Source: a virus. From it: a DNA stretch of 64,000 nucleotides. The DNA lies in IMG/VR virus record IMGVR_UViG_3300009159_007116, positions 1-64,000 of that record; one strand, given 5' to 3'. The first letter of the stretch is position 1, and every line of letters begins with the position of its first letter. Below the pieces are notes generated by a model, which saw only the letters and a list, made by a program, of their open reading frames with translations, had not been told where the DNA came from and did not search any database. Positions 1,771-14,508 of this stretch are shown here, one piece after another. The translations under genes and the position numbers were made by a program.

Positions 1771-1872
1771 ATGTATCCATCAGACCCAACACACGGAACT
1801 TTTTGTTTGTTTATCTTATTGGCAGCATTTGCCATACAGATTATTGCTCTTAACTTTAATAAAGGAGGATGA
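1771..1872 (+). CDS. Small membrane peptide, 33 aa
   Basis: A short gene with one strongly hydrophobic segment (about residues 11-28) preceded by a polar N-terminus containing a cysteine. It has a good Shine-Dalgarno (AAGGAGAG) and lies directly behind a promoter-like motif. Its own 3' end contains the AAAGGAGG of the next gene, two bases downstream. Likely a single-pass membrane micropeptide. The role is unknown, although phage micropeptides of this kind are often anti-host or lysis-related. Confidence 0.55.
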   Translation: MYPSDPTHGTFCLFILLAAFAIQIIALNFNKGG

Positions 1873-1873
1873 T

Positions 1874-2203
1874 ATGAAAAATAGAAGGATTAGCATTACA
1901 TCAAGCATTATCGAAGGCATTGAACGAATGGTGCATAGTAATTGCATTAATGAAAGTTATGCTGAATTCATCTTGGATTGGATTCAAAATATTAAAAGAT
2001 TTCCAATGCAAAAATATTCAGATATTCCACAAGAGCTACGCTTAAAATTAGACATTCTTAATAGTCAATACATTGATAAGAATGAAGAAAAAAATGGTCT
2101 TGTATATCATAAAAGTGTCTTAGATGCATTTATGTACATAACCAAAGTTAATGAAAGATATAAGGAAGTAGCTCCAATTGCTGCTGAAGTTGAACAGGAA
2201 TAA
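1874..2203 (+). CDS. Hypothetical protein, 109 aa
   Basis: The frame is open from 1829, but AAAGGAGG at 1861-1868 points to ATG 1874. The product is soluble and helical with no recognised domain. It is coupled to the micropeptide upstream and to a small lipoprotein downstream. Confidence 0.65.
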   Translation: MKNRRISITSSIIEGIERMVHSNCINESYAEFILDWIQNIKRFPMQKYSDIPQELRLKLDILNSQYIDKNEEKNGLVYHKSVLDAFMYITKVNERYKEVAPIAAEVEQE

Positions 2204-2235
2204 TGTGCGTCTTTTCTAAACTAGGAGGGTTTATG

Positions 2236-2394
2236 ATGACTGCTAGGATTTTAATGTGCTTTGCTGCTATATGTGTGTTTGGATGCGGAACGATAGAGCA
2301 AAGCGTTTCTACTAGTATCAGTCCATATGACAGTAGAGAAATAGAAAAAATTAATGTGAGTTTTAAACACTATTATGTTTTTCCAGCTAGGTAA
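2236..2394 (+). CDS. Small predicted lipoprotein, 52 aa
   Basis: The N-terminus is hydrophobic and followed by VFGC, a plausible lipobox with Cys at about residue 17. The precursor would be cleaved and lipidated, leaving a mature chain of about 36 residues. AGGAGG (2223-2228) favours ATG 2236, with ATG 2233 as an alternative. Tiny phage lipoproteins are commonly o-spanins (Rz1-like) or superinfection-exclusion factors. No partner i-spanin was recognised next to it, so neither role is asserted. Confidence 0.6.
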   Translation: MTARILMCFAAICVFGCGTIEQSVSTSISPYDSREIEKINVSFKHYYVFPAR

Positions 2395-2397
2395 TTT

Positions 2398-2661
2398 ATG
2401 ACAATAGAAAAAAAGAAATTCATATCTGGTGATAATGGATTTATATATTCAATGTCTAAACCTAAATGGAAAAAGCACTTAAAGTTAATGCTTGCCCACA
2501 AACTATCTTTGTTAAAGAAGAAACATCTTCTAATGCCAGAGATCAATAAGGATGACATTAAGTTAATAGCCTATAATATATTTGATATATATAGGCTTAA
2601 GCAGGATGATTGTATTGATATAATTAAATCAGAAATTGTAAAACTAGGAGAACAAAAATGA
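2398..2661 (+). CDS. Hypothetical basic protein, 87 aa
   Basis: Lysine-rich N-terminal half with several KK pairs, then an acidic helical C-terminus. The start at 2398 is three bases after the previous stop and lacks a clear Shine-Dalgarno, suggesting coupling by reinitiation. The stop overlaps the next ATG (ATGA). Family unknown. Confidence 0.6.
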   Translation: MTIEKKKFISGDNGFIYSMSKPKWKKHLKLMLAHKLSLLKKKHLLMPEINKDDIKLIAYNIFDIYRLKQDDCIDIIKSEIVKLGEQK

Positions 2662-2870
2662 AAATGTATGTAGTTGGTGGATATAAAGATGGAAAAATTC
2701 GTGTTGGTTTGCTCGACAAGGTTTGGAAAAGCAAAGCTGGAACTGAATTAGTTACCCTAAAGATTCTTGATCATTATAAAGAACATAAAACAGTTTATAG
2801 AACTTATCATAAAAAAGAATTAGATGTTATGAAAGTTTTAGATGTTGATGAAAAGGAAATTGAACAATGA
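2658..2870 (+). CDS. Hypothetical protein, 70 aa
   Basis: Small protein with a beta-rich N-terminus and acidic C-terminus, starting from an ATGA overlap with the upstream gene. The Shine-Dalgarno AGGAG lies inside that gene. It directly precedes and overlaps the sugar-nucleotide island, but nothing in it suggests sugar metabolism. Confidence 0.6.
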   Translation: MKMYVVGGYKDGKIRVGLLDKVWKSKAGTELVTLKILDHYKEHKTVYRTYHKKELDVMKVLDVDEKEIEQ

Positions 2871-3817
2871 GAATACTTATTACTGGCGGTTATGGGTTTC
2901 TTGGAAAGAGTATTTGTAACAATTTAAAGTTAAAAGGCATTAAAGAACTTACAAATATTGATGAATCTGGAGAAGGGTATTATAGATTTAGAAAAAAAGA
3001 CTTTGATATTATAGATAAACAACAATGTTTAGAGTTAATTAAAAGGTTTAATCCAGAAAAAATAATTCATGCAGCAGCAAAAGTTGGAGGTATAGGAGCA
3101 AATAAAAAATATCCTGCTGATTTTTTCTATGAAAATCTTATGATGGGAGTTAATTTAATAGACTCATGTAAAAATACAAGTATTAATAAAATAATTTTAG
3201 TTGGAACAGTTTGTTCTTATCCAAAAATAACTCCTGTGCCGTTTAAAGAGTCAAATTTGTGGGATGGTTATCCAGAAGAAACGAATGCTGGATATGGAAT
3301 AGCAAAAAAAACAATTCTTACTCAAGCTATATCATATAAACAACAATATGGAATTGATTTTACATATCTTCTTATGGTAAATTTATATGGAATTGGAGAT
3401 AACTTTGATGATCAAAGCTCTCATGTTATTCCTGCATTAATAAAGAAATTTGTTAACGCTAAAAAAAATAATTTAAATTCTGTAGAAGTTTGGGGAACAG
3501 GTAATGCTACTAGAGAATTTTTATATGTAGATGATGCATCAGAAGCAATAGTAAGATCAGTTGATAAATGCGGATCTTTTGAACCAATGAATATAGGCAA
3601 CGGATTTGAAGTAACAATCAAACAAATTACCTCTATAATAAAAACAATTGTTGGATATAATGGAGAAATTGTGTTTAATACAAATTATCCAGATGGTCAA
3701 CCAAGAAGATGTCTAGATACAACTTTATCAAAACAAAATCTAGGTGATTATGCAAACACAAGTCTTTACGAAGGACTAAAGAAAACAATTGAATGGTATT
3801 TGGATTTTAAAAAATGA
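2867..3817 (+). CDS. fcl: GDP-L-fucose synthase-like NAD(P)-dependent epimerase/reductase
   Basis: Extended short-chain dehydrogenase/reductase of 316 aa, the usual size for GDP-fucose synthase (Fcl/WcaG). The Rossmann motif GGYGFLG is at residues 7-13. The family signature AAKVGGI followed by the YPADF and YENL segments lies near 70-92. The GTVCSYP motif (Cys116) and the catalytic Y143-x3-K147 pair are intact. The family converts GDP-4-keto-6-deoxy-mannose to GDP-L-fucose by 3,5-epimerisation and reduction. The related ColC enzyme makes GDP-L-colitose by C5 epimerisation and reduction. A ColD-like dehydratase lies two genes downstream, so ColC is a real alternative. No GDP-mannose 4,6-dehydratase is visible in the window, so the substrate would come from the host or another phage gene. 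Confidence 0.85.
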   Translation: MRILITGGYGFLGKSICNNLKLKGIKELTNIDESGEGYYRFRKKDFDIIDKQQCLELIKRFNPEKIIHAAAKVGGIGANKKYPADFFYENLMMGVNLIDSCKNTSINKIILVGTVCSYPKITPVPFKESNLWDGYPEETNAGYGIAKKTILTQAISYKQQYGIDFTYLLMVNLYGIGDNFDDQSSHVIPALIKKFVNAKKNNLNSVEVWGTGNATREFLYVDDASEAIVRSVDKCGSFEPMNIGNGFEVTIKQITSIIKTIVGYNGEIVFNTNYPDGQPRRCLDTTLSKQNLGDYANTSLYEGLKKTIEWYLDFKK

Positions 3818-4587
3818 TCAAAGTACAAACACAAGCTATTCGTGGCGATGAATATCACAGAGGAATTTTTTCTTTTGTAGATCAATTTCTTTCAAACTGT
3901 AAGTATTTTTATGATTTAAAAATTAATTTTAAAATGAATTTTGATTTAAATAAAAAAACAGGTTATTACGATACAGAATACAAAAAAACAGATAATGTTT
4001 GGGAATATTACTTCAATAAAAATTTTGAAGAACAACCAGATCAAATAGTAGAATGGATTGGAAACTATGATTATCATTATGAATTTAATTACAACGATCA
4101 AGAAAAAAGATTTATTTGCAAGGAATTAATAGAAAAACACTTAAGTATAAAGAATGAAATAATTTTAATTGCTAATTCATTCTATCGGAATAACATTAAA
4201 AAAAATAGTTTAGGGGTTCATGTTCGTGGAACAGATATAGAAATACATCATCAAAAAATAAAGTTTGAAAAGTATTTTAAAGAAATAGATGCTCTTTTAA
4301 ATCAATACGAAACAATATTTTTATGTTCAGATGAATATCAAACAATAGATGTTTTTAAAAACAAATATGGAAATAAAATAATTACATATGAATCAAAAAC
4401 ATTATCAAAAAACAATGTTCTACCTGAGTACAAACAAAATGGAAAAAATAAATATAAAATGGGTGAAGATGTTATTGTTGAATCTTTACTTTTAAGTAAA
4501 ACAGATTTTTTACTAAAAGGTAAATCTAATATGTCAAATTTTTCATTGTTATATAATCCACTATTACAATTTAAAAATTTACAATGA
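3814..4587 (+). CDS. Fucosyltransferase-like protein (GT23/NodZ-like fold)
   Basis: 257-aa protein carrying the HVRGTD motif near residue 133, the pyrophosphate/GDP-fucose-binding signature of the alpha-1,2/alpha-1,6/O-fucosyltransferase superfamily. A later FLCSDE strand near residue 170 and an acidic helix followed by an SNMSNF segment near 240 correspond to the usual second and third motifs. It would transfer fucose or a related 6-deoxy sugar from GDP-sugar to an unknown acceptor. The start overlaps the fcl stop (ATGA), so donor synthesis and transfer are coupled. The N-terminal 100 residues are divergent and the acceptor cannot be predicted. Confidence 0.65.
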   Translation: MIKVQTQAIRGDEYHRGIFSFVDQFLSNCKYFYDLKINFKMNFDLNKKTGYYDTEYKKTDNVWEYYFNKNFEEQPDQIVEWIGNYDYHYEFNYNDQEKRFICKELIEKHLSIKNEIILIANSFYRNNIKKNSLGVHVRGTDIEIHHQKIKFEKYFKEIDALLNQYETIFLCSDEYQTIDVFKNKYGNKIITYESKTLSKNNVLPEYKQNGKNKYKMGEDVIVESLLLSKTDFLLKGKSNMSNFSLLYNPLLQFKNLQ

Positions 4588-11504: not shown

Positions 11505-12002
11505 ATGTTATTACATTTAAAAGATTTTTTTACTAAAGAACAATGTTCTTTTTTAAGTGGGATTTTGTTGGATTATTATAAAAATAATAGTCTTGGTTGG
11601 GAAGGTAATGATCAGCATTACAAAAATTCTTATGGTTCAACAATTCCAGAATTTGAATCTGTACTTGAAGACATAACCCCAAGAATAAAAATATTATTAA
11701 AAAATGATAATATTGTAAAGGTAAATAGCTATAGTAGAATTTACTTTAATGATTCTATTTTAAAAAGACATGTAGATAGAGAAGACTTAGAATACACATT
11801 AAGTGTTTGTATATTTGATAATACAAATAAAAAGTGGCCACTATTTGTTGAGCATGATGGTGGTATAGCTGAAGTAATAACAAATGTTGGTGATGGTGGA
11901 TTAATAATGGGAACTAAAATGGCACATTGGAGAGAAAAACTTCTTTGTGAAGAAGATCAAATGGTTATGCAATGTTTTTTCCATTGGAAAAATATTAAAT
12001 AA
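11505..12002 (+). CDS. 2-oxoglutarate/Fe(II) oxygenase-like protein, 165 aa
   Basis: Starts with the FTKEQC helix typical of prolyl-4-hydroxylase-like proteins. A His-x-Asp pair (RHVDRED, near residue 88) and a later histidine in MAHWREK near residue 145 fit the HxD...H iron site of the 2OG-Fe(II) oxygenase fold. No clear C-terminal Arg/Lys for 2-oxoglutarate is assigned. Hydroxylation of protein or small-molecule substrates is inferred. It is convergent with a second oxygenase gene (11995-12564), overlapping by 8 bases. Confidence 0.6.
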   Translation: MLLHLKDFFTKEQCSFLSGILLDYYKNNSLGWEGNDQHYKNSYGSTIPEFESVLEDITPRIKILLKNDNIVKVNSYSRIYFNDSILKRHVDREDLEYTLSVCIFDNTNKKWPLFVEHDGGIAEVITNVGDGGLIMGTKMAHWREKLLCEEDQMVMQCFFHWKNIK

Positions 12003-12564
12003 ATTTGTTTTGTCTAATCCAAACAATAGCAATCCACTTGTTTCCAGAAACAACAGGTAATCCTGCATGTATTGAGTCATAGTCTAATGATCCATCATCA
12101 TTTAAATTTGACCAAAGCAAACCTTTGCCTGTTTTTGGAATTACCTTAATATCTTTTTTAACAAATTTTGTTTCGCCACCTTCAAATTCATCGTTTAAAT
12201 AAAACAAAAAGCTGTAAGTCCTTTGCCCACCTCTATTTATATGAACATTATAGTCTTGTGTATTAGCATGAAAAAAATCATGATGTTCTTTGTATTCACC
12301 ACCTATTTCATAATGAACAATATGTATAGCTTCTTGATTTTCTATTGGCAAAGATGTGTGTTCTTGCACTATTTGTTTAATCTTTTTATTTAAATCAACG
12401 CCAAAACTATCTATTACTGGAGATAAAACCCAAGTACCATCTCCAACTCTATAGTTATTATTTTCACCTATAGTTGTTAATTTTCTAAGTTGTGCTTTAG
12501 AATAATCTATTAATGTTTGACAGTCTTCTTTTGTTAACAAATTTTCTATTTCTTTAATAACCAT
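11995..12564 (-). CDS. Prolyl 4-hydroxylase-like 2OG-Fe(II) oxygenase
   Basis: 189 aa. Clear P4H-family pattern: HHDFF (His-x-Asp) near residue 95, GGQRTYSFLFYLND near 112-125, EGGETKF, and the distal HAGLPVVSGNKW with the iron-binding His and the 2-oxoglutarate-binding Lys near 168-178. Oxygenases of this type are common in large phages and hydroxylate proline, other residues or nucleobases. The substrate is unknown. On the minus strand between two plus-strand units, with its promoter probably in the gap shared with 12622. Confidence 0.8.
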   Translation of the reverse strand: MVIKEIENLLTKEDCQTLIDYSKAQLRKLTTIGENNNYRVGDGTWVLSPVIDSFGVDLNKKIKQIVQEHTSLPIENQEAIHIVHYEIGGEYKEHHDFFHANTQDYNVHINRGGQRTYSFLFYLNDEFEGGETKFVKKDIKVIPKTGKGLLWSNLNDDGSLDYDSIHAGLPVVSGNKWIAIVWIRQNKFI

Positions 12565-12997: not shown

Positions 12998-13897
12998 ATG
13001 CTTAAAGTTTATGACATGTTTTCGGGTATAGGTGGTTTTGCTTTAGGATTTCAAAAAGAAGGTTTTGAAGTAACTGCTTTTGCAGAATTAGACAAGTATC
13101 CTTCTCAAGTCTTAGCAAAAAACTTTCCAAACATTCCAAATTATGGCGATGTTACAAAAATAAAATACGAAAAAAATCAATTTGATGTAATAGTTGGGGG
13201 TTTTCCCTGCACAGATATATCTATAGCAAGTCAATCAAAGGAGGGAATATATGGCAAAAGATCGTTCTTGTGGAAAGAGTTCTTCAGAGCAGTTGGAGAT
13301 ATTCAACCCAAATATTGCGTCATTGAAAATGTCCAAATGCTCGTTAGAAGAGGGCTTAACACGATACTCAGCGACCTTGCCTCCATCGGGTACGATGCGA
13401 CTTATACGACACTCGATGCCCAATACTGTGGAACAGCCCAAAGAAGGCGTAGAATTTACATTTTGGGAGTCCGTGATGGAATCCCCGCCAATAGCGATAT
13501 ATTCGAGTTTGGCCCTCGTAGTACTAGAACCTGTCAACAAAGCATGGAACTTGTCAAAAAGAGCTTTGAATGGAATTTTAAAGAGAGCATGTGGTTCAAA
13601 GAAACCTTTGCCTACTTTACTCGCCAAAGAAGTGATCAATTTGATGAATGCGGAGTGTCATCGACCTTAACAAAAAGAGATTATAAATCATTTACAGATT
13701 TAGTAGTCTCTAATGGTAATATACGCAGAGTAACGCCCACAGAGAGGCTTAGACTTATGGGTTTTCATGACCATTGGCATATTCCAGATGCTTCAAATAC
13801 AGATAAGTATAAATACAATGGTATGCATGTACCTTCAGTTCAGTACATAGCAAGATGTTTAAAGGAGTATCATAAATGTTTGAATTCTCAAAAATAG
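12998..13897 (+). CDS. DNA cytosine-5 methyltransferase
   Basis: 299 aa with the C5-MTase motifs in order: motif I DMFSGIGGF (residues 6-14, SAM binding), motif IV GGFPCTD with catalytic Cys71, motif VI ENV (110-112), motif VIII QRRRR (148-152), and motifs IX/X RRVTPTERLRLMGF and NGMHVPSVQ near the C-terminus. It methylates C5 of cytosine, probably to protect phage DNA from host restriction. The start follows AAGGAGG. The middle of the gene (about 13235-13670) is visibly more GC-rich than its two ends and contains a second open frame with its own ribosome-binding site. The target-recognition region is short and the target sequence cannot be predicted. Confidence 0.9.
   Translation: MLKVYDMFSGIGGFALGFQKEGFEVTAFAELDKYPSQVLAKNFPNIPNYGDVTKIKYEKNQFDVIVGGFPCTDISIASQSKEGIYGKRSFLWKEFFRAVGDIQPKYCVIENVQMLVRRGLNTILSDLASIGYDATYTTLDAQYCGTAQRRRRIYILGVRDGIPANSDIFEFGPRSTRTCQQSMELVKKSFEWNFKESMWFKETFAYFTRQRSDQFDECGVSSTLTKRDYKSFTDLVVSNGNIRRVTPTERLRLMGFHDHWHIPDASNTDKYKYNGMHVPSVQYIARCLKEYHKCLNSQK
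13251..13670 (+). CDS. Overlapping ORF embedded in the cytosine methyltransferase gene, 139 aa
   Basis: This second frame starts with ATG GCA AAA after AAAGGAGGG with 5-nt spacing, an excellent ribosome-binding site placed inside the methyltransferase gene, and ends at TAA 13668-13670. Its limits coincide with the GC-rich island. The methyltransferase third-codon position is this frame's second position. It is enriched in C and gives Ser/Pro/Thr/Ala-rich protein such as LPPSGTMR, as expected if this frame is selected. The SGTMR segment is the shifted reading of the IGYDA motif. I recall similar SGTMRNG-type proteins annotated in phages, from memory only. Alternatively the island is a recombined segment and the frame is fortuitous. 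Confidence 0.4.
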   Translation: MAKDRSCGKSSSEQLEIFNPNIASLKMSKCSLEEGLTRYSATLPPSGTMRLIRHSMPNTVEQPKEGVEFTFWESVMESPPIAIYSSLALVVLEPVNKAWNLSKRALNGILKRACGSKKPLPTLLAKEVINLMNAECHRP

Positions 13898-14508
13898 CAG
13901 AAAAGTTTGATGAACACTTGTCTGGACAACTATATTGGCACAGCAATTTTGTTAATCATTTCTTGCCTGAGATTGCATCGGTATTTATGGCAGAAGAAAC
14001 AAATGTGTACGATTTTGGTGCAAGCACAGGTAATGTGGAATTGGCTTTATCAAGTATGATTAAGTCAAGAAACATAGACTATATACCAGTTGAAAAATGC
14101 AAAGAGATGGTAGAAAGATATAAAGGTGAAAGCGAAGTAGTTCTTGATGACTTTCTCAATATTTATATGGAAGAGTTTTCATTTGCCACATGCATTTTAT
14201 CTTTATGTTTTGTTCACCCATCAAAAAGAGAAATGTTTATTGATTCTTTAAAAAATAATTGTATGGTCGGAGGTGCTTTTGTAATATTAGAAAAAATGAA
14301 ATCTAGGGGTGGATATCTAGGAACAGCCTTAAATAGAGTTACATGGCGTAATAAGATTGAAAATGGCGAATCTGTAAAAATGGTAGTTAATAAAGAACTT
14401 TCTTTAAGTGGAGTTCAATATCCTCTAAGTGAAAAAGAACTTGAAGAATTTGAGTTAATATGGGCGTATGGTGATTTTCGTGCTTACATTTGGCTAAAGG
14501 AGTTTTAA
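13876..14508 (+). CDS. SAM-dependent methyltransferase, CmoA-like
   Basis: 210 aa class I SAM-binding protein. VYDFGASTGN near residues 42-51 is motif I, and a later ILSLCFVHP strand near 110 corresponds to the NxTLQF-type motif of CmoA-related proteins, followed by a GGAFVILEKM strand. CmoA makes carboxy-SAM for tRNA wobble-uridine modification; phage homologues have unproven substrates. It begins inside the end of the cytosine methyltransferase gene behind AAAGGAG and is probably co-expressed with it. Confidence 0.65.
   Translation: MFEFSKIAEKFDEHLSGQLYWHSNFVNHFLPEIASVFMAEETNVYDFGASTGNVELALSSMIKSRNIDYIPVEKCKEMVERYKGESEVVLDDFLNIYMEEFSFATCILSLCFVHPSKREMFIDSLKNNCMVGGAFVILEKMKSRGGYLGTALNRVTWRNKIENGESVKMVVNKELSLSGVQYPLSEKELEEFELIWAYGDFRAYIWLKEF

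Follow-up and report, generated by a model that had tools for sequence, protein, structure and literature searches.

Can the gene of a viral DNA methyltransferase hold, in another reading frame of the same strand, a complete second gene? The question is raised by a locus in the window analysed here, a stretch of 64,000 nucleotides (positions 1 to 64,000 of IMG/VR record IMGVR_UViG_3300009159_007116) that forms part of a 75.9-kb virus record. At 12998–13897 (+) it encodes a C5-cytosine DNA methyltransferase (MTase), and the original prediction placed a second gene inside it, leaving the MTase frame intact. The MTase frame indeed runs uninterrupted across the overlap, giving a protein of 299 aa (PF00145, E=2e-54) in which PF00145 and alignment identify motifs I–VIII, a canonical motif IX (RRVTPTERLRLMGF), and a degenerate motif X (NGMHVPSV). 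Taken together, the evidence set out below strongly supports the claim of a second gene, as far as can be judged from sequence.

The downstream gene (13876–14508), assigned to PHROG 4752 “tRNA methyltransferase” (E=1e-32), also starts within the 3′ end of the MTase gene (13876–13897), so this short operon contains two separate overlaps. On the opposite strand, the product of 11995–12564 (−) looks by eye like a prolyl-4-hydroxylase-like 2-oxoglutarate dioxygenase with the HxD...H pattern.

The +1 Frame and Its Start Site

The overlapping open reading frame (ORF) occupies 13251–13670 (+) in the +1 frame, entirely within the MTase gene; it begins with ATG, comprises 139 codons, and ends with TAA. 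Five nucleotides ahead of this internal ATG lies a Shine-Dalgarno-like (SD) site, AAAGGAGGG, at 13237–13245 (+), so that the predicted mid-gene arrangement of ribosome-binding site and start codon is confirmed. From stop to stop the frame is open for 147 codons, against a mean longest frame of 69 under permutation of synonymous codons (P=0.004, for one gene), while openness of the +2 frame in the same permutation of the same gene is at chance. A 134-aa antisense ORF over the same stretch was dropped as a candidate; its extent is not conserved (96–140 codons among relatives), and hence it needs no explanation of its own.

The +1 protein bears the signature SGTMR at 13386–13400 (+), which is conserved in the window sub-family and is, as had been proposed, the shifted reading of IGYDA in the MTase. 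Its structure model is poor (mean pLDDT 58), with confidence confined to a predicted C-terminal helical hairpin (pLDDT 75–81) formed by residues 103–136 within WNLSKRALNGILKRACGSKKPLPTLLAKEVINLM and encoded at 13557–13658 (+). Foldseek searches with predicted models of the +1 proteins gave no match, and no fold was assigned. MTase motif IX is absent from the window +1 protein; it sits in the MTase frame.

Close Relatives and Vibrio Phages

The IMG/VR scan returned 19 loci, of which 18 are full length with protein identity of 90–99%. In all 18, the limits of the +1 frame fall on identical codons, and both AAAGGAGGG and the ATG are unchanged. With the +1 protein as the query, the scan reached further loci at 55% identity, and tblastn found three types of Vibrio phage (four records; E from 2e-23 to 2e-20, 43–52% identity), with every match read +1 to an intact MTase frame. 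Stop codons or loss of the start and SD site in homologues, which would have spoken against the prediction, were sought; the frame stays open, and SD and ATG are kept in the close clade. In the wider family, the +1 start alternates between two positions, in most cases with an SD-like site upstream; no clear SD-like site precedes the +1 start of Vibrio phage 1.233.A.

Selection on Both Frames

C at third codon positions of the MTase rises from 0.11 before the overlap to 0.29 inside it and falls to 0.08 after it, in agreement with the prediction. A GC-rich island is likewise present over the ORF, with a local maximum of 0.45–0.51 at 13275–13575; its predicted coincidence with the ORF end is not exact, as GC is down to 0.38 by about 13500–13650 and the island thus ends somewhat before the ORF does.

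Across 12 close sequences, synonymous change in the MTase runs at 0.353 upstream of the overlap, 0.184 within it, and 0.314 downstream (codon permutation P=0.00025), dropping to 0.02–0.12 in codons 151–220; suppression is strongest in codons 161–220, over and just before the +1 hairpin. The same holds for a wider family of 17 sequences, with 0.409 inside versus 0.635 outside the overlap (permutation P=0.00005). The boundaries of the suppressed stretch match the limits of the +1 ORF, and the synonymous-rate test proposed for the prediction thus gave the result expected of a double-coding region. A Fisher test on fourfold sites in the close clade reached only P=0.09, the codon-level permutation being the more powerful. 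The ratio dSN/dSS is 0.32 inside the overlap compared with 1.38 and 3.42 outside; if a change is silent in the MTase, it is accepted three times more often when it is silent in the +1 frame as well.

The non-synonymous rate of the MTase in the 12 close sequences is not lowered over the overlap (pN 0.037, 0.038, and 0.046 before, inside, and after). This is important for the alternative offered with the prediction, a recombined segment of different composition, under which no frame would be singled out for stop avoidance and synonymous and non-synonymous change would be lost alike; neither is observed. Recombination or a recent sweep of the segment would lower both types of change, and with pN unreduced the recombination reading fails.

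The Same Overlap in Other Phages

The original prediction also named phage proteins of the SGTMRNG type as a possible instance of the same overlap, and this proved correct. An SGTMRNG-type query matched 178 phage records, and in 12 of 12 diverse phages that were read (phages of Mycobacterium, Gordonia, Propionibacterium, Sulfitobacter, Bacteroides, Porphyromonas, and Microcystis, as well as uncultured phages) the frame that encodes SGTMRNG is +1 to that of a C5 MTase. These +1 proteins correspond to PHROG 1008 (profile E down to 7e-60). The window +1 protein matches the PHROG 1008 profile weakly (E=0.025), and profile–profile comparison of the window-family and type I +1 proteins gave 99.7% over 117 columns, a figure to which the shadow of the shared MTase motifs contributes.

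A second tail, type II, with the pattern YYLSxKACAGILRRAEKRGKxLP, is found in the +1 frame of the dmt gene of phage P1, in CP-T1, PaeS-D14E, Javan105, and others. In P1 (AF234172.1), a +1 ORF of 163 codons at 2159–2650 with this tail lies within dmt (1861–4125). In P1-like dmt genes, the suppression of synonymous change is weak and no more than suggestive, with P=0.033 when the whole gene is the reference and P=0.14 when only its C5 part is. In the window sub-family, the +1 protein joins the SGTMR core to a related tail.

Several loci show peculiarities of their own. Dmt proteins of differing length are encoded by Punavirus SJ46 and plasmid p2RM10507; in these, the +1 tail sequence is altered and the ILRRAEARGRKLP pattern is kept. 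For Virus Rctr197k, the annotated CDS (1788–2468) is the +1 frame, and the actual MTase frame (1616–2449) is unannotated. The MTase of Propionibacterium phage B22 (644–2743) has a long intein-like insertion that separates the two residues of the catalytic PC motif, splitting the protein exactly at this point (GGSP...HNCQD). The prophage-like MTases L280, L296, L240, L276, and L282 (around 1304) have a +1 ORF (MSWLFS...) that begins near the MTase start and spans almost the whole gene.

No description of the overlap in phages was found in the open literature searched.

Family-Wide Statistics and Controls

MTases were gathered by their MTase frame from seeds known to carry the overlap, and 195 were kept at less than 80% identity; given such seeds, the figures from these 195 do not estimate prevalence. 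The longest +1 frame exceeds a synonymous-permutation null with a mean z of 4.06 (P<0.05 in 89% of the 195 distinct MTases), while the +2 and the three antisense frames of the same genes are at chance (z from −0.21 to 0.27). No +1 excess appears in the genes that flank these MTases (z=0.14) or in 30 control C5 MTases (z=0.04), which were the top PF00145 matches from genomes of one bacterial phylum and were taken as restriction-modification-type enzymes. Among 52 type II genes, the +1 frame gives z=2.0, with the remaining frames near the null. Start sites point the same way: an SD with ATG or GTG precedes the SGT motif in the +1 frame of 96 of the 195 MTases versus 60.3 ± 5.9 under the null, and the enrichment is confined to this frame (49 in the +2 frame versus a null of 64.7).

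Homology scores by themselves were given low weight because the conserved motifs of the MTase throw their shadow on all frames. Shuffled MTases still yield +1 translations with a median of 128 bits against the family profile (232 for real genes), and although the real +1 frame outscored the shuffled one in 97 of 98 cases, this score was set aside as frame-specific evidence, the +2 and antisense frames being positive too. Frame-blind conservation tests are thus weak, so the case is built on the avoidance of stops, the start sites, and the suppressed synonymous change. The +1 proteins as a whole diverge too far for a joint alignment of them to serve as the seed of a collection scan.

These data also bear on the reading that there is no second protein and that a recombined GC-rich segment, or a constraint at the RNA or codon level, leaves the frame open by chance. 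The local GC island, the modest single-gene P value for openness, and the conservation of other frames above shuffles would all fit it. It is nevertheless very improbable, since MTase pN is not reduced over the overlap, doubly silent changes are tolerated threefold more than those silent in the MTase only, and only the +1 frame shows stop avoidance and an enrichment of starts, the former being absent from flanking genes and restriction-modification MTases.

In a quick tree, a branch with support 94 separates the type I, type II, and window-type MTases from the controls; the sole control-labelled exception, L332, carries the type II overlap. Among 200 genomes of the phylum that supplied the controls, PHROG 1008 occurs in 14, each time over an MTase ORF and never alone. 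By these sequence comparisons, the putative +1 family (PHROG 1008 and its unlisted relatives) was found nowhere but in the +1 frame of a single C5 MTase branch, and the predicted overlap is general to that branch, in phages including P1 and in prophage-like loci across bacteria. It is possible, though less likely than not, that a single ancient overprinting created a family locked in the +1 frame of this branch in phages and prophages of several phyla, P1 dmt included, which in window-like branches took on an independent role that goes further than the completion of the MTase.

Division of Motif IX between the Frames

In 125 of the 195 MTases, a motif-IX-like LMGFPxGW is present only in the +1 frame while motif X is in frame 0, and in 104 of the 195 the +1 motif IX lies exactly 14 codons ahead of the frame-0 motif X. 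The type I tails match C5 MTases weakly by profile, and a sequence search of the PDB with them gave only a weak motif-IX match to a DNA methyltransferase (4onj/4onq, E=0.42). In MadKillah, gp6 ends after motif VIII and the +1-frame gp5 carries motifs IX and X (E=2e-5 against an MTase C-terminal profile). Babsiella gp54/gp55 and MadKillah gp6/gp5 are already annotated as pairs of overlapping “methylase” genes; in Babsiella, the LPTP repeats and motif IX have been taken over by frame 0.

The location of the +1 motif IX between frame-0 motifs VIII and X, like the gp6/gp5 split, might suggest programmed ribosomal frameshifting into the +1 frame, which would yield an MTase with an alternative C-terminus in place of a separate protein. 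Such a mechanism is unlikely: SD-preceded starts are enriched in the +1 frame and strong in the window clade, most members would lose motif X by a single +1 shift, and the N-terminal SGT part is conserved though it would be superfluous in a fusion.

Significance

Long same-strand overlapping genes have seldom been proven outside small viruses. Here the support comes from frame-specific statistics over hundreds of genes, negative controls, and an experimental relative, M.EcoHK31I (see below). If the +1 frame is translated, its protein is absent from or mislabelled in most phage annotations, as it has no Pfam or NCBIfam model, and engineered or recoded copies of such MTases may be left without their partner. 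P1, a laboratory phage of E. coli, allows a direct test of the overlap.

Comparison with Known Systems

The closest parallel is M.EcoHK31I, whose small ORF reportedly lies inside the large one in a different frame. This parallel, as well as the restriction of the overlap to one branch of C5 MTases that includes P1 dmt, is an addition to the original prediction. The large polypeptide of M.EcoHK31I contains motifs I–VIII and X and the small one motif IX (PMC3404938, where the enzyme is described), and both polypeptides are required for methylation according to the title of Lee, Kam and Shaw (1995). Motifs are divided in the same way in most relatives of the window MTase, so small MTase subunits are the simplest reading of the family. 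M.EcoHK31I is a restriction-modification enzyme, whereas the window family consists of phage or prophage genes, and the two are likened by description, not by sequence. The window itself departs from this scheme in part: its MTase has the motifs of an M.EcoHK31I-type large ORF (I–VIII and X, the latter degenerate), but motif IX is not solely in the small polypeptide, as it is in 125 of 195 relatives; the MTase keeps its own and the +1 protein has none. As the window MTase is complete, the role known from M.EcoHK31I is not directly transferable.

The frame at 13251–13670 is probably a real gene with its own internal SD and ATG, the product most likely being a small partner (β-type) subunit of the MTase. 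Ribosomes would start at the internal SD and ATG on the MTase mRNA, and the +1 product, as in M.EcoHK31I, would bind the large subunit and aid DNA binding or target choice. In the window sub-family, motif IX is present in the MTase itself and the +1 protein terminates in the conserved helical hairpin instead, so its role there would be that of an accessory, not of a subunit that completes catalysis. It is less probable, though worth serious consideration, that a real +1-frame gene makes a product that serves something else (e.g., counter-defence or transcription control) and is held in place only by the overlap. Such independence would suit a window-type product that lacks motif IX and lies over a complete MTase, a predicted hairpin resembling a separate module, and the differences in SGT core and type II tail between branches; against it stand the absence of the family apart from an MTase in the 14 genomes with a match, the MTase motif carried by the +1 product in most relatives, and the precedent of M.EcoHK31I (PMC3404938).

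Other systems help to delimit the overlap. M.AquI is a split C5 MTase of two polypeptides, the small one comprising motif IX, motif X, and half the variable region (PMC3404938); its motifs are divided as in MadKillah gp6/gp5, whereas the large ORF of the window is complete. HNH insertions of the ShiLan type (PMC11855218) likewise give a phage methylase gene a second, out-of-frame protein; they are mobile and absent from other copies, whereas the window overlap involves the catalytic core itself, with no insertion. The members of PHROG 1008 are, like the window protein, +1-frame proteins of such MTases, although the label “DNA methyltransferase” conceals their alternative-frame origin and their SGT core has no catalytic MTase motif. 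The window +1 protein may thus act in the manner of a β subunit without the enzyme being of the M.EcoHK31I type.
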